64,000 bases of DNA. It comes from Pandoraea communis (GTDB taxonomy: Bacteria > Pseudomonadota > Gammaproteobacteria > Burkholderiales > Burkholderiaceae). The notes beneath the pieces were generated by a model that was not told the DNA's origin, did not search any database, and was given only the letters and a program-made list of their open reading frames with translations. The stretch is from the NCBI RefSeq assembly GCF_902459745.1, contig NZ_CABPSJ010000010.1, forward strand, positions 1 to 64,000, read 5' to 3'. Shown piece by piece: positions 57,658-64,000 of this stretch. A program made the position numbers and the translations under genes. Position 1 is the first letter of the stretch. Each line of letters opens with the position of its first letter.

Positions 57658-60600
57658 TTAAAAACGCCACGTTGCCGACACCGACCCCGCCACGTCCGCA
57701 CTCCCCGCCTTGTAGAGGTTGCTCGACACCGCCGCACCAAACACAACGCGCTGCGCCAACCGATACGACACCCCCGCCTGCAACCCAAGGCTGTCTCTAC
57801 CCACTACCTCACTACGCGTTGTGAACGCCGCGCCCGGATATCCCGCGAAGTACGCACTCTGTGTCACTGCGCCACCCGTCAACTCATGATTCCACGTGGC
57901 CTGCATACTCGCCGTCAACGCATTGCCGGAAATCATCGGCAATTCGAAACGCACTTCACCTCCAAGACGACTCCGCAGCGAATTGAACGTCTTGCCGTTA
58001 ACATGCAAACGCACACCGTCAGCATTGCCTTCGGTAAGACTCGGTCGATATAGCGCCGTGTAGTCGAGCGCCGCAATCGGCCCCGCACTCGTCGTGCCAC
58101 TCAACTGCCAGCGCCAACCACCACCCACGGTGGCCGACGCCGTCGCTCCCGTCCACGTCCCCCTCGGCGCCGCCGAATACCCGTTCACCGCAATCGAACG
58201 ATCCACCCGGCCATCCTCAACCCCCACCCGCGCCGACGCAAACGCATGCGGCCCAGCATTCAAGTCCGGCGCATACCTCGCATGCACACCGACATCGAGC
58301 GCCGTAGTCTTTCCAGAGCCAGGCGTCTGACCGTCCAGACGCGTCGACTGACCACTGATGGCACCATGCGCGCCCAACGTCCAGTCGCGCCCCTCACCCG
58401 CCACCCTCTCAACGCCAAACACCACGCCGTAGGTATTGCCGCTCGCACCCGCCATGTCTCCAGCGCTTCCGCGCCAATATCCACTGCCGAAAGGCATCGC
58501 GAACGCACGCCAGTTGCCCTTGAGCGCGCCCTCACCCGCTCCCTTCACGCCATCGGCGCCAACAGCCGCCGCAACCATGTCGGTAATCTGACGCTCACGC
58601 AACAAACCACCCGTGTACATGGCGCCATACGCGGCCGGAGTGAGTTGCGGCAACGCCCTGGCAATGCCGCTGCCGTCCGCCGCAGAAAAGTCGAGCGCCG
58701 CCACCAACGGCTGCAGGTCCGCACCGGCACCGCCCGCGAGCTTGTCGAGCGCCAATCCGACCCGCTGGCTATTGCCGTCGACACCGTATCGGGAATATGC
58801 ACTCGCCGCGCGTGTGATAGCCACGCGGTAGGTGTTGTTGCCCAACGACGTGGCACTGGCGTTCAGCGTCGGTGATGCCAGCAAGGCCGTTACGCTGGCA
58901 AAGGCACCCGTGATGCTCGACGCATTGAGCCACTGGTTCGATGTGACGCTGAAACCGCTCGCGTACCAACCGCGCTGCGGCGCAATCGCCAGCGTGCCGT
59001 CCAGAGTGGCATTGCCGGAGACGACCAGTTTGCTGAAAGTGCCGTCGGCCGCGAGCGAGCTCAGCAAGCGGCCCGTGCTCGCTTGTGTGTAGTCTCCGCC
59101 CACACTGATGAAACCGCCAGCCAGCAACGGCGCGACCGTGCCCGCGTTGACGAAGCGCCCGGCAGCATCGAGTTGATAGCGACTGTTGCCGGTAAGGGTT
59201 GCACCATTGGCCACATTCACGTCGTAGACCGTGTGATCGCCGTTGATCTGTGTGGTGCCACCAACCATCGACAGCGACAGATTGCCGCCGACGATGTTGC
59301 CGTCGAAGCGCAAGTTGAAGGCTGCATCCGGCTGCAAGGTGGCACGGCCGTTTGCATCCGGCGTCAAACCGAATTTGAGTTGCGTCAACCGTAGCGCACC
59401 GCTGCTGTCGCGCTGCGAATAGAACGACAGAATGTCGCCATAGAGCGCCGCCCCGCGCATGATGTTGATCTGCCCGACATAACCGCTCTCGGACATGTAG
59501 AGCGAAGCGTATTTGCCCGCGAGCCGGCCCGTGACGTCGACTTGCGATACCAATGGCCCGTTGATTTCGTCGGGCAACGGCAGCGGATTGTTCTGCTCCT
59601 GGCGGATGTACGAGCCCCGATATTCGAAATCCTGACCGTCGCCGAGAGGGTTGTAGCCAAAGTCGAAGCTCGCCGCGATGCCATGCTCGCCCATTGCCTG
59701 GACGTCGCCACGCTGCACAAAGGTGTGATTCTTGCCGTAGGTGAACATCACGCCACGCCCATAGGCACCGTCGGCATACACGCGCGTTCCGGGAAGCACG
59801 ACGACAGTATTCCCCACACCGTCAACGCGAATGCCCGCGCCACCGGGCCCCGCGCTCAACAGATCGGCCAATTGCGAGACGTTGTTGTAGCTGCCGTAGA
59901 TGTGTAACCCCAGGCCTTGCGTGGCGGTGTTGTAGACGTTCGGCAAGTAGGCCGTGCCGTCGGCGTTGCGGCCGAAGTACGGCCTGTCGTTAACGATGGT
60001 CAGCCCGTCGTTGTAAATCGAGCGGCCGAAGAAGTTGCGACGATCGATGTTGTAGCCAAGGTCCTGAAGCGCCGCCAGTTCGGCCTCCATGAACCCGGTG
60101 TAATTGCGATACTGCTGGTGACTCATCAAGCTGTTTTTCAACTCGATGTGCGACATGAACGGAAGGTCGGCCGCGTTGCTATCGAGTCCCGTCGTAACCA
60201 CGGGAATTCCCTTCATCGCGCCCGCCAGCACTTCGCTCACGTGGTCGCCGGCGAAGTATCCCCCCTCCGAACTGACGTCGAACGGATTGGCCGACGGGGT
60301 ATTCACGCAAACCGGACAATGGATGACTTGTCCCGGCTGGGCCGGATTGCCTTTGCTGTCGCGCAAGTGGGAAGTCCAGACGTCGAGCTGCTGCGGGAAA
60401 GACGCAGCGTACGGCGCCCCGCCTGAGTAATTCATCACGATATTCGTGCCGATACCCAGGTTATGCGCCACCTCATGAAAGATCACCGCAGGCAGATCGG
60501 CCTGCCGATTGAGCGGTATCTGCGACGGAATGTACGGCGCCGGCGAGAAATTCATGTCGGTAATGGTGATTTCTCCATGCGCCTTGAAGAAAGAAGGCGC

Positions 60601-61002
60601 CGGAGCCTCGCCTTTGAGCAGCGCTGAAACCACCAGTGTGTCGACGCCGTTACCGTCAGCACCAAACGGGCTGTCGGCATGGGTGCCGCCGGTCTTCGAC
60701 AGGCCGATGTTGAGAACCGCAGGCACCTGCCCCTGCGGAAACCTGAGAATTTCGCCCCAGTAGCGCAATGCAGCCACTGTCTGCGCCCTTTGGATTGCCG
60801 AAATGGTGTCGCTCGACGGCACGCCCAGCCCCGTGGTTTCCGAGTATCGATAATCGCCAAAGGACGGCGTCACGAAGCGCGCATCGATGAACGGCACCCC
60901 GTTTCCGTCGGTGATGTGCTCGATATCGTCGGCTTCTGCCACTGGCGACATCATCATGCAAAGCGCCGCAAACGCGACGCCAGTCATACGAATCGTCATC
61001 AT
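57658..61002 (-). CDS. Type V autotransporter with HExxH (zincin-like) N-terminal passenger domain
   Basis: The 1114-residue protein has a signal peptide ([15 protein letters not shown]). An N-terminal domain (~25-340) carries HEVAHNLG at H176-H180, the zinc-protease HExxH motif, and a Cys pair (CPVCVN). A passenger with Gly/Asn/Thr-rich beta-helix repeats (~350-760) follows, then a C-terminal autotransporter barrel (~835-1114) ending in VSATWRF, with the terminal Phe needed for outer-membrane assembly. It should place its passenger on the cell surface. The third metal ligand of a metzincin is not obvious after the motif, so catalysis is a prediction. It is a single gene, divergent from the micropeptide operon. 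Confidence 0.88.
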
Positions 61003-61081: not shown

Positions 61082-61171
61082 CACTGCGATTTATACGGGG
61101 TTTGGGCAAAACCACTCGCAAATCCTTGTTAAACAAGGATTTTTTTGTTTTTCACACTGCGATTTCACGGG
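61082..61171. repeat. Direct repeats flanking a hairpin upstream of the micropeptide operon
   Basis: CACTGCGATTTATACGGG (61082-61099) and CACTGCGATTTCACGGG (61155-61171) are near-identical and 73 bases apart, with a terminator-like hairpin between them. The second copy overlaps the candidate -35 box, so the pair could bind a regulator of the operon. Confidence 0.5.
61120..61147 (+). terminator. Terminator-like hairpin in the divergent gap
   Basis: AAATCCTTGTT-A-AACAAGGATTT followed by a T-run, reading on the plus strand. No plus-strand gene lies upstream, so it may isolate the peptide promoter from read-through or act as an attenuator in a longer leader. Confidence 0.6.
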
Positions 61172-61193
61172 AAATCGGTCCGGCTTGTATTAA
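61164..61193 (+). promoter_or_regulatory. Candidate promoter of the micropeptide operon
   Basis: TTCACG (61164-61169) is 18 bases from TATTAA (61188-61193), about 105 bases before the first micro-ORF. Matches are four of six in the -35 box and moderate in the -10 box. Confidence 0.4.
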
Positions 61194-61297
61194 TCACAGT
61201 TTCGCCAGGGTGGGGCAGTGACGATACTTCACTCACCGACTGACGCAACACAGCGGCAGCCGAAACCCGGACCCCGGACCCTTCAAGGAGAAACGAC

Positions 61298-61372
61298 ATG
61301 CCCGCCATCATCGCCTACGGCTTTCCCTCACTCCTCGGCCTCGTGGGCGTCATCGCCCCGATCTTCGGCTGA
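61298..61372 (+). CDS. Micro-ORF 1: hydrophobic 24-residue peptide
   Basis: ATG at 61298 opens a 24-codon frame: Met-Pro-Ala, then a stretch of Ile, Leu, Val, Gly and Phe with no charged residue, ending at TGA 61370. AAGGAG stands seven bases before the ATG, a near-ideal ribosome binding site. The peptide is hydrophobic enough to insert into or cross a membrane. Its leader (CAAGGAGAAACGAC) and its first codons (ATGCCCGCC) closely match those of micro-ORF 3, suggesting duplication. It is the first of three consecutive micro-ORFs ending at a terminator. No family is recognised; it could be a signal, a small toxin or a membrane regulator. Confidence 0.65.
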   Translation: MPAIIAYGFPSLLGLVGVIAPIFG

Positions 61373-61411
61373 GCCGCCCCTCACCCCGACCAGAACCCGG
61401 AGAACGACATC

Positions 61412-61516
61412 ATGAGCCACCTCTTCGACTTCATCGACAGCCTGCTGACCAACGAAACGTGCGTCGAAACCGGTATGCAGTGCGCCGTGACCATCGGCCA
61501 CTTTTTTGCCTACTGA
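61412..61516 (+). CDS. Micro-ORF 2: 34-residue acidic peptide with two cysteines
   Basis: ATG at 61412 opens a 34-codon frame beginning MSHLFDFIDSLLTNETC and ending with His-Phe-Phe-Ala-Tyr before TGA at 61514. Two cysteines lie seven residues apart (C17 and C24) and could form a disulfide. The first half has the spacing of an amphipathic helix with Asp/Glu on one face. CCGGAGAACGAC precedes the ATG. It follows micro-ORF 1 by 39 bases. No family is recognised. Confidence 0.6.
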   Translation: MSHLFDFIDSLLTNETCVETGMQCAVTIGHFFAY

Positions 61517-61558
61517 TACGCGGCACGATCGCCGCCCCCCAGATCAAGGAGAAACAAT

Positions 61559-61633
61559 ATGCCCGCTGCCCTCTATTGCGCCGCCACGGAACTGTTCGAG
61601 AAATTCGGCCACCTTCTTCCTTTCAATCTCTGA
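61559..61633 (+). CDS. Micro-ORF 3: 24-residue peptide with one cysteine
   Basis: ATG at 61559 opens a 24-codon frame beginning MPAALYCAATELFEKFGHLL and ending Pro-Phe-Asn-Leu before TGA at 61631. AAGGAG stands seven bases upstream in a context almost identical to that of micro-ORF 1. It has one cysteine and an amphipathic helix pattern. The terminator at 61650 begins 17 bases after its stop, which fits the end of a three-gene transcript. No family is recognised. Confidence 0.62.
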   Translation: MPAALYCAATELFEKFGHLLPFNL

Positions 61634-61649
61634 ATCACCCTGATTGCCA

Positions 61650-61684
61650 CGAAGAAAGGACCGCCCCAAGCGGTCCTTTCTTCG
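61650..61684 (+). terminator. Strong terminator after the micropeptide operon
   Basis: CGAAGAAAGGACCGC-CCCAA-GCGGTCCTTTCTTCG has 15-base perfect arms. The T-rich part lies in the distal arm. It separates the peptide genes from the two-component genes downstream. Confidence 0.88.
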
Positions 61685-61813
61685 TTATGCAACACGGTGA
61701 ACCCATCGCGCATAACCGATATGCCACCAACGCGGAAATTAAGAAGAACTTCGTCGTCCGGCAATTTTTTAGTACGATTTCGGCATTCACATACAAAAAT
61801 CGGGGCCAGAGGG

Positions 61814-62416
61814 ATGTCATCTCCCACCAAAGTATTCTGCATCGAGGACGATCATGATTCAGCCGACCTGATTCGCGAAGACCTGACGGATCGGGGCTAC
61901 GTCGTCAAGGTGGCGCACGACTTTACGACGGCACTGGCGACGCTGGCGTCGTTCATGCCGGACGTCATCCTGTGCGACATCAATGTGCCGGGCATGACCG
62001 GCTTCGAGTTTCTGGAAAGCGCCCGCAGCATCATTCAGGGCGAGCGAAAGATTCCCTTCATCTTCCTCACGGGCAACGCCGACAAGGCGTCGATCATGCG
62101 CGGGCATAGCACCGGCGCCGACGAATACATGCTCAAGCCGGTCGACTTCGACGTGCTCGACACTGTCATCCGCAAGTACACCGAGCACGACGAAACGCCG
62201 GATGACGCGCCGCTGCCGTTCGGCCTGACGAAACGGGAAGTGGAAGTGCTGCAATGGTCGGCACGCGGCAAGACGTCCGCCGAAATCTCGATCATCCTCG
62301 ATCTGGGCAAACGCACGGTGGACTTCCATATCGATAACGCCCGCGAGAAGCTCAATGTCGCCACGCGCACGGAAGCCGTGGTACGCGCCGCGCTGCTCAA
62401 CATCATCCAGCTTTGA
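61814..62416 (+). CDS. Response regulator with LuxR-type DNA-binding domain
   Basis: The 200-residue protein has a receiver domain (1-~120) with the acidic pair D12-D13, phospho-acceptor D55 in VILCDINVPG, the Thr in FLTGNADK and the Lys in YMLKPVD. Its LuxR-type helix-turn-helix (~135-197: LTKREVEVLQWSARGKTSAEI, GKRTVDFHIDNAREKL, ATRTEAVVRAAL) resembles that of quorum-sensing LuxR proteins more than NarL. AGAGGG directly before the ATG decides the start; longer frames run back into the terminator. It is followed by a histidine kinase gene after 36 bases. The micropeptide operon lies 130 bases upstream, on the same strand. Confidence 0.92.
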   Translation: MSSPTKVFCIEDDHDSADLIREDLTDRGYVVKVAHDFTTALATLASFMPDVILCDINVPGMTGFEFLESARSIIQGERKIPFIFLTGNADKASIMRGHSTGADEYMLKPVDFDVLDTVIRKYTEHDETPDDAPLPFGLTKREVEVLQWSARGKTSAEISIILDLGKRTVDFHIDNAREKLNVATRTEAVVRAALLNIIQL

Positions 62417-62452: not shown

Positions 62453-64000
62453 ATGGCTAAAGCGTCTTCATCACCCAACAAGCAACTCCCGATCCGGCGC
62501 AGGATGTATTTACTGCTCGCCCTCAGCCTCATCGCCATGGTCGCGGTGGGCGTTGTGGTGCACCGCAAAGTCGATGCATCCCAGCGCCGCGCCATCGAGG
62601 CCGAACGCACGCAGATAGAACACCTCAGCGTGCTTGAGGAACTCAACGATTACATCTCGGACTTTCGCACCGTAGAATCCGAAGCCCTCGCCCCGATGTC
62701 GCCCAAAGCGCTCGCCGATACCCGCGCCGCCGCCGCCGAGTTCGACGACAAGATCAAAACGGCCTCGGAGCGCTATCAGAAGGTGCTGGTGCACGACGAA
62801 TTCCGTCTGGCATTCTCGAAATTCCAGACGCAGTGGGCTCAGTATCGGCGCGCTTCGAATCAGGTGTTCCAGCTCGCCCAGAGCGGCAAGCTGAACGACG
62901 CCGCCAAGCTCTATCGCGGTGAGTCGAACAACAAGTACACGCAGGCGAATAGCACCTTCGGCTCGCTGGTGTTTCGCAGCACCGAAGCCCTCATCAAGGA
63001 AGTCGAAGCCAAGAACAAGGCGGCTCGCAACCGTCTCCTGCAAATCGACGGCCTCATCGCCGCGATGATTATTTTGACGCTGCTCTGCCTGGTCTACGTG
63101 GACACGGCCATCCTCAAACCGCTCACGCGCCTGATCCGGATGTCGGGCAACGCGGTGTCGGGTAAGGAAAAGCTGCGACTGCCCTGGCTTGCGCGCGGTG
63201 ACGAAATCGGCACGCTGTCGCGCTCGCTCGCCAAGTTCCAGGAAAGTACGTCGTCGCTGGTGCGCAATCAGAAGCTCGCGACAGCCAAGAACACGATCCT
63301 GCAACGTGCACTGGCCAACGAGGAACGCCTCAACAACTTCCAGAAGACCTTCCGGTCGATGGCCACGCACGAGTTCCGCACGCTGCTCAATGTGATCGAC
63401 GGCCACGCGCAACGCCTGCTGAGCCCGCGTAACGAGGAAACGGATTCGAGTCCGCGCTATACGAAGATTCGCGAAGCCGTCGCCAAGCTCAACCATCTGA
63501 TTCAGAACTGGCTGGATGCCGCGCAAAGCGCATCGCTCGACGACCCGAAGTTCGGCAAACGCGCCGAGTTGTCGCTCGTTGCGCTGCTCGAAGACGTGCG
63601 CGGCGTCGGCTCGGATATGTTCCCGAACGCGACGATTACGGTGCAAGCCCCCCAAGGTCTCGACAGTCGCATGATCGGCGACAGCAACGTGCTGTTCCAC
63701 GCGTTCATCAACCTGATCAGCAATGCCACCAAGTACACGATGGTGGCGCCCGCGATCGATATCGGCGTGTCCGATACGGGCAGGGCCTTGTGCGTCGTCT
63801 TGCGCGACAACGGCACGGGCATTCCGGAGGACGAACTCAGGGAAATCTTCCAGATGTCGTTCCGCTCACGCAGCAACGCGGTGCTGGAGGACGGCTCGGG
63901 CGTGGGCCTCGCGGTGGTCCACGCCGCCATCGAATTCCATAAGGGAACCATCGATGTGACGAGTCAGGTCGGTGTTGGCACCACGTTCACGATCACGCTG
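62453..64000 (+). CDS. Sensor histidine kinase (C-terminus cut by window end)
   Basis: The first 516 residues are present. A membrane helix (~19-37) is followed by a ~160-residue periplasmic helical sensor (~38-198), a second helix (~199-219), a HAMP domain (~220-272), a HisKA domain with H306 in SMATHEFRTLLN, and an ATPase domain with NLISNATKY (N box), RDNGTGIPE (G1), IFQMSFRS (F box) and GSGVGLAVVH (G2). It should phosphorylate the response regulator encoded just upstream. The helical sensor resembles the four-helix bundles of chemoreceptors. Only a few residues are likely to be missing at the end, unless a receiver or Hpt domain follows. No clear ribosome site precedes the ATG. Confidence 0.92.
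   Translation, partial: MAKASSSPNKQLPIRRRMYLLLALSLIAMVAVGVVVHRKVDASQRRAIEAERTQIEHLSVLEELNDYISDFRTVESEALAPMSPKALADTRAAAAEFDDKIKTASERYQKVLVHDEFRLAFSKFQTQWAQYRRASNQVFQLAQSGKLNDAAKLYRGESNNKYTQANSTFGSLVFRSTEALIKEVEAKNKAARNRLLQIDGLIAAMIILTLLCLVYVDTAILKPLTRLIRMSGNAVSGKEKLRLPWLARGDEIGTLSRSLAKFQESTSSLVRNQKLATAKNTILQRALANEERLNNFQKTFRSMATHEFRTLLNVIDGHAQRLLSPRNEETDSSPRYTKIREAVAKLNHLIQNWLDAAQSASLDDPKFGKRAELSLVALLEDVRGVGSDMFPNATITVQAPQGLDSRMIGDSNVLFHAFINLISNATKYTMVAPAIDIGVSDTGRALCVVLRDNGTGIPEDELREIFQMSFRSRSNAVLEDGSGVGLAVVHAAIEFHKGTIDVTSQVGVGTTFTITL

Follow-up and report, generated by a model that had tools for sequence, protein, structure and literature searches.

Several described systems bear comparison with the locus reported here. 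Multicopy type I toxins such as Ldr, Ibs and AapA are small hydrophobic peptides encoded at several loci, MgrB is the membrane-peptide precedent for the kinase PhoQ, and AgrA is a regulator of another type than the LuxR/GerE regulators. In staphylococci, psm-alpha encodes several leaderless peptides of 20-25 amino acids on one transcript, which is activated by a two-component system and whose products are exported by an ABC transporter (PMC6428751). MacB-family pumps are reported to export enterotoxin II of E. coli as well as cyclic lipopeptides (PMC8277102). Pandoraea, the genus examined here, is an opportunist in cystic fibrosis and in bloodstream infection (PMC12066476). The findings below suggest an unrecognised peptide system in this Gram-negative bacterium; a literature search mostly confined to material outside subscription journals found no report of such peptides in Pandoraea.

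The cassette in the window and its neighbours

The DNA analysed, referred to throughout as the window, is a stretch of 64,000 nucleotides from Pandoraea communis (NZ_CABPSJ010000010.1, contig C10 of its own genome, G000). The features that concern us are as follows.

57658..61002, minus strand: autotransporter (Pfam Autotransporter), divergent, 182 nt from the box
61120..61142, plus strand: terminator-like hairpin upstream of the box (terminator scan)
61185..61235, plus strand: putative promoter box TTGTATTNNTCNCAGTTTCG-N18-GATACTTCANTCA, found at 39 places in Pandoraea (column counts)
61237..61251, plus strand: conserved start of the 5' leader, CG.C..ACGC.A, outside the search pattern
61298..61372, plus strand: micropeptide A1, 24 codons, MPAIIAYGFPSLLGLVGVIAPIFG, uncharged and hydrophobic
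61412..61516, plus strand: micropeptide A2, 34 codons, MSHLFDFIDSLLTNETCVETGMQCAVTIGHFFAY, acidic, two Cys, conserved C-terminus
61559..61633, plus strand: micropeptide A3, the variable member, 24 codons, MPAALYCAATELFEKFGHLLPFNL, amphipathic
61649..61685, plus strand: cassette-closing 16-bp hairpin, intrinsic-terminator-like (folding)
61814..62416, plus strand: LuxR/NarL-type response regulator (Pfam Response_reg and GerE)
62453..64000, plus strand, running on to contig position 64033: histidine kinase with a 4HB_MCP-type four-helix periplasmic sensor (Pfam 4HB_MCP_1 and HATPase_c)
contig about 64127-68880, opposite strand: outer membrane efflux protein, MacB and HlyD-type (MacA-like) adaptor (domains)

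A sequence-only reading of this DNA had proposed three successive frames of 24, 34 and 24 codons, each behind a strong ribosome site, with a terminator at the end of the cassette. All three frames lie where that reading placed them, the GGAG of the ribosome site ends 7, 9 and 7 nt 5' of the ATGs of A1, A2 and A3, and folding reveals the 16-bp hairpin at 61649-61685, which is absent from the output of a simple terminator scan. The same scan found the one hairpin at 61120..61142, shuffled sequences averaging 1.0. The description of the peptides also agrees with ours, A1 being uncharged and hydrophobic, A2 acidic with two cysteines, and the third peptide bearing one cysteine, which is not conserved among its relatives. 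Setting the start of the unit at 61298 captured the frames and left the conserved promoter region, 61185-61251, outside. The suggestion that A3 arose as a duplicate of A1 did not survive: the supposedly shared leader is merely the style of ribosome site found throughout the family, which is all that the two have in common, and the MPA start gives way to MSA, MPV, MLE or MVR among relatives of A3. The nearest relative of the cassette locus is in genome G005, with 94% DNA identity.

Pfam domains agree with the regulator and the helical-sensor kinase that had been noted downstream. The receiver and GerE domains, with an adjacent kinase carrying HATPase, identify a two-component system of the LuxR/NarL type; the HisKA domain of the kinase scores slightly below the Pfam cut-off (E 1.5e-5). 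Just outside the window (locus L129), MacB_PCD, ABC and FtsX domains, an HlyD-type adaptor and an outer membrane efflux protein make up a tripartite exporter of the MacAB type. An autotransporter homolog stands divergently beside the box, 182-193 nt away, in 16 of 18 comparable (A-type, see below) loci. Pfam finds only the beta-domain of the window copy (57658-61002); its passenger contains a 10-residue stretch that resembles a metzincin-type zinc-protease motif. The region upstream of the regulator (TTTCGTC..TCCG..ATTTTTTAGTACGATTTC, about 61740-61813) shows apparent conservation across the nine loci compared, and contains TTTCG and ACGAT pieces like those of the box at another spacing.

A promoter and leader box shared by 39 cassettes

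Searching 61 genomes with the cassette DNA gave matches in 22, all of them Pandoraea. Some of these matches were short, covered the upstream leader only and lay at other loci, and it was this leader that defined the box. Allowing at most three mismatches, the box occurs at 39 places in 23 of 32 Pandoraea genomes and in none of 366 other Burkholderiaceae, and the reversed pattern used as a control gave no match. A shorter exact form retrieved 24 stretches, all Pandoraea, from the GTDB collection, which may omit some records. Within the collections searched, the box is found only in Pandoraea.

A class II activator would be expected to bind just upstream of the -35 and to overlap it. We infer that the box comprises such an activator site, overlapping a -35-like TTTCGC that is followed by a 17-nt spacer and a -10-like GATACT. 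Conservation extends into the leader, where, from +14 to +28 relative to the -10-like hexamer, 8 of 15 columns are identical in 38-39 of the 39 loci. The bases CGGCTNACGCAAC (61237-61251 in the window), with which the cassette transcripts presumably begin, are strongly conserved. A T-run lies 5' of the box in most of the A-type loci inspected (by eye).

At every one of the 39 loci, a frame that has a ribosome site and 24-49 codons starts 95-161 nt past the start of the box. When the same stretches were sampled at random positions for such a frame (ATG, 20-59 codons, ribosome site, start 90-165 nt after the box start), 126 of 31,861 (0.4%) had one; the link between box and short frame is not due to chance. 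We regard it as nearly certain that these frames are real genes with a shared promoter. The cassette noted in the window is real and belongs to something larger than had been supposed, a set of 39 micropeptide cassettes spread over 23 of the 32 Pandoraea genomes. One apparent promoter and leader type precedes one to four short frames at every place found.

In the window's own genome, the 20-base upstream half-box alone gave two matches and its reversed control four, which gives no basis for claiming a wider regulon. This, and the presence of the box in front of all cassettes that the box search found, make the peptides look more like outputs of the regulator than like its input, although they may be both.

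Composition of the cassettes

Within 620 nt of the box, 15 cassettes have one frame, 7 have two, 15 have three and 2 have four, and the several frames of the 24 longer cassettes are unlike one another. We grouped the cassettes ourselves into four types. The A-type, at 18 loci beside the two-component system, has A1, A2 and variable further peptides, the third peptide turning over from species to species; in L112, A2 alone passes our criteria, and A2 of L098 and the third frame of L113, seen by eye, failed the ribosome-site filter and are uncounted. In the B-type, found at 4 loci with the same system (G006, G009, G010 and G027), other peptides replace those of A. The end of B1, I/M-TVGHFFGY, resembles that of A2, the two sharing the form [IVM][TH][VI][GA]H[VF]F. 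The regulator lies 1.7-4.7 kb from the cassette in three B-type loci (L110, L115 and L121). In these, a gene of 210 amino acids sits between micropeptides and regulator, accompanied by further genes in L115; its L110 copy has no Pfam match. The C-type (11 loci elsewhere) encodes peptides of the form MP...P-F-F/W/L-Q/H and variants, and the D-type (5 loci elsewhere) encodes MNPI... peptides. No ortholog of the regulator, kinase or MacB lies within the stretches fetched around C and D cassettes, those of L097 and L124 being shortened.

Plasmids carry a further arrangement. At plasmid locus L105, A1 and A2 are fused into a single frame of 49 amino acids behind a box. Further fused frames without the full box are found twice on pPO70-1 and once on pPF72-1 (the latter by eye), and two of these three have lost one cysteine. 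Three fused frames, on P. faecigallinarum pPF72-1 and P. oxalativorans pPO70-1, are annotated as hypothetical proteins (WP_157112500.1, WP_157123031.1 and WP_157122937.1); 49 residues long, they are the annotated relatives that the plasmid collection yielded; unlike the window genes they are fused and plasmid-borne, and both pPO70-1 copies lack the full box. The divergent fused frame at L208:1464-1613 (NZ_CP011518.2), on a conjugative plasmid, retains the -10 and leader and is missing the upstream half-box. In G018, the chromosomal cassette has been lost and the sole box is on a plasmid. The fusion argues that A1 and A2 act together. A receiver gene beside the plasmid cassette of pPF72-1 was considered as a counterpart of the regulator and set aside, as it encodes a short, different protein with no BLASTP match to the window regulator at E<=10.

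Evidence for coding and character of the peptides

For each group of frames, we compared the unique changes from the group consensus with the same changes randomly placed 5000 times. Changes were more conservative than expected in A1 (p=0.0012, n=17), A2 (none of 5000 randomisations reaching the observed score; n=17, selected on a length of 34), D (p=0.0002, n=5), C26 and Ciii (none of 5000 each; n=4 and 3), Cii (p=0.0002, n=3), the MVRA group (p=0.0002, n=3) and A3a, a close subgroup of A3 (p=0.046, n=6). The MIEN group fell short of significance (p=0.053, n=4), as did B1 (p=0.67) and B2 (p=0.058), which offer few changes (3 and 2). In-frame pN/pS is 0.35-0.71 across groups. A1 has the value of 0.71 and its +1 frame is no higher (0.66), so the case for coding in A1 rests on the conservative-change test, its constant length and the fusion. 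Lengths are fixed (24 codons in every one of 17 A1 frames, 34 in each of the 17 unfused A2 frames listed), and the spacers vary. By their substitutions, most groups of frames evolve as coding sequence.

The 39 cassettes contain 82 frames encoding 66 distinct peptides, with lengths of 23-34 amino acids except for the fused 49. No signal peptide is apparent in the sequences by eye, and 32 of the 66 have proline at position -4 from the C-terminus. Net charge (K/R minus D/E) is 0 in 23 peptides, -1 in 25, -2 in 6, -3 in 3 and -4 in 9; with none positive, cationic antimicrobial peptides were rejected as an identity.

Database searches are a weak test for queries this short: 8 peptides had no match in Pfam or NCBIfam at E<=1, and 6 had none in PHROGs at E<=0.1. 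An A2 profile run against 398 Burkholderiaceae genomes gave some match at E<=1 in 147, those below 1e-4 being all Pandoraea and the best outside the genus reaching E 0.0089. A2 is predicted to be helical, with a mean pLDDT of 68.7, a model too uncertain to be used in a fold search, and the best hit in a profile search of the PDB had E 0.43. Phage origin was considered and dropped, A2 having matched no viral contig and no phage record.

Co-occurrence with the two-component system and MacB

Orthologs of the regulator (at least 90% identical) are present in 24 of the 32 Pandoraea genomes, and the same 24 have orthologs of the kinase (at least 79% over the first 300 residues) and of MacB (at least 87%). 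In all of them MacB shares a contig with the regulator, at a distance of about 3-30 kb (9-30 kb in 6 of the 24). The proposed link between micropeptides and two-component system holds up: the box occurs in 23 of the 24 genomes with the system and in none of the 8 without it. The exception, G011, keeps regulator, kinase and MacB and has lost box and cassette, leaving a relic of the GGACCGC terminator hairpin that resembles the closing hairpin flanking A3 and is also found in L098 (by eye). As judged from these orthologs, the genomes that harbour the cassette family also have a specific two-component system of the LuxR type and, linked to it, a MacB.

On a purH tree (FastTree, midpoint root), five of the eight genomes without the system fall outside the rest, and the other three (G003, G019 and G028) form a nested clade (support 0.986) lacking box, regulator, kinase and linked MacB, so the informative joint absence amounts to a single event. 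A second MacB paralog (G000:C4:535541-537565 and relatives), 55-57% identical to the first, has a nearly identical pattern: at E<=1e-200 it is present in 22 of the 24 genomes and in none of the 8. The co-occurrence is therefore partly phylogenetic and should not be over-interpreted. Much of the co-occurrence of box, system and MacB is shared ancestry.

More distant relatives of the regulator, 51-54% identical, are found in another genus, g48, in 7 of the 16 genomes. Six loci were fetched; none has a comparable small frame in the 1.6 kb upstream, and a large RND-like transporter (named by eye) adjoins the regulator. A box near these relatives was rejected, the best matches having 11-13 mismatches (4 of 6 loci) where the next-best place in the window has 12.

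Discussion

The reading that we tentatively prefer, at somewhat under even confidence, is that the cassettes constitute a regulon specific to Pandoraea and tied to the two-component system, whose products are hydrophobic peptides, leaderless and uncharged to acidic, that act jointly on membranes and are secreted. The anatomy of the cassettes (promoter type, short leader, strong ribosome sites, often several unlike peptides, terminator) points to what would be coordinated, high-level production of small hydrophobic peptides. The response regulator would bind the TTGTATTnnTCnCAG element next to the -35 and activate all cassettes; adjacency and joint distribution make it the best candidate activator, and we consider its control of the cassettes probable. 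Autoregulation of the regulator is possible. The peptides would associate with membranes and act together. They would leave the cytoplasm or the envelope via the linked pump of MacA, MacB and outer membrane factor, the most economical route because no signal peptide is apparent. Outside the cell they may be membrane-active (surfactant-like or antagonistic), possibly feeding back on the four-helix sensor of the kinase. A secreted, diversifying product would account better than a housekeeping regulator for the turnover of peptide sequence between lineages, for the losses and for the copies that are dispersed or on plasmids.

Alternatively, the peptides could remain in the inner membrane and act there as small regulators, whether of the kinase, of the pump or of further envelope proteins, providing intracellular feedback. 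Their hydrophobicity and size (nearly all 23-34 amino acids), the four-helix periplasmic sensor, the proximity of cassette and kinase at 22 loci (18 A and 4 B) and the precedent of a membrane peptide in PhoQ/PhoP (PMC2789325) speak for this. Regulators of the MgrB kind are likewise small hydrophobic peptides linked to a two-component system (PMC2789325), yet the Pandoraea cassettes hold one to four unlike peptides and also lie away from the kinase. The third peptide turns over while the regulator stays at least 90% and the sensor half of the kinase at least 79% identical, and G011 retains its kinase without a box. We consider inner-membrane regulation unlikely. Conservation of the partners bears in the same way on the earlier hypothesis of secreted autoinducing signals sensed by the kinase, which the related C-terminal ends of the otherwise different A2 and B1, the frequent proline fourth from the C-terminus (32 of 66), and the linked kinase and pump would suit: the peptides are less conserved than kinase and regulator, those of A and B differ largely even though the first 300 residues of the corresponding kinases are about 80% identical, and no processing protease came to light. 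Autoinduction strikes us as decidedly unlikely.

In size, hydrophobicity and multiple dispersed copies, the peptides also recall small inner-membrane toxins of type I, such as Ldr, Ibs and AapA, restrained by antisense RNA, and the window cassette mRNA is structured (z -3.2, closing hairpin included). Against this, 24 of the 39 cassettes carry several different frames per transcript, the ribosome sites are strong, the window has no Rfam match at gathering score, and a consensus scan, a weak test since such promoters need not match it, saw no antisense promoter-like site in the window cassette. A toxin role is improbable. A conserved RNA, acting as small RNA or attenuator with incidental frames, might explain why the 5' leader is conserved beyond the promoter; conservative in-frame substitutions, fixed frame lengths between variable spacers and the A1-A2 fusion all run counter to it. 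The RNA-only explanation is disfavoured by the substitution test, and we give it hardly any weight.

Comparison with known systems

A two-component operon for biofilm formation in Burkholderia was set aside as unrelated, being of the CreB type (PMC5192318). The genes beside the kinase share with exporters of the MacAB-TolC type an outer membrane efflux protein, MacB and HlyD-type adaptor domains, and their connection to micropeptides in Pandoraea is one of presence and linkage.

Our preferred reading, a secreted and jointly acting set of peptides, resembles in its logic that of the staphylococcal phenol-soluble modulins (psm-alpha, AgrA, Pmt), and we do not claim membership. Both have leaderless short peptides, often several per transcript, and the regulator that co-occurs with the box would correspond to the two-component activator of the modulins; in Pandoraea, such peptides of about 20-45 amino acids come two to four to a cassette in 24 of 39 and singly in 15. 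In contrast to the modulins, the peptides tested match no family (8 in Pfam and NCBIfam, 6 in PHROGs, a weak test for very short queries), none of the 66 distinct peptides has a net positive charge, the host is Gram-negative, the cassettes are dispersed with one promoter, and the regulator is of the LuxR/GerE type. A linked MacB is present in all 24 genomes with the system, and export through a pump of this type would take the place of dedicated ABC export. A Gram-negative counterpart of modulin and Agr logic, in which dispersed, fast-diversifying micropeptides, leaderless and uncharged to acidic, driven by a two-component system exit through a MacAB-type pump and either act in concert on neighbour or host membranes or serve as signals to the kinase, is a possibility that we hold with considerable doubt; if true, this would be peptide secretion of a kind not met in the literature searched. 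The shared promoter has brought to light 82 very short frames, and the list of 39 cassettes doubles as a list of candidate targets for one regulator. With it, whether Gram-negative bacteria run leaderless peptide systems like the modulins becomes a testable question.
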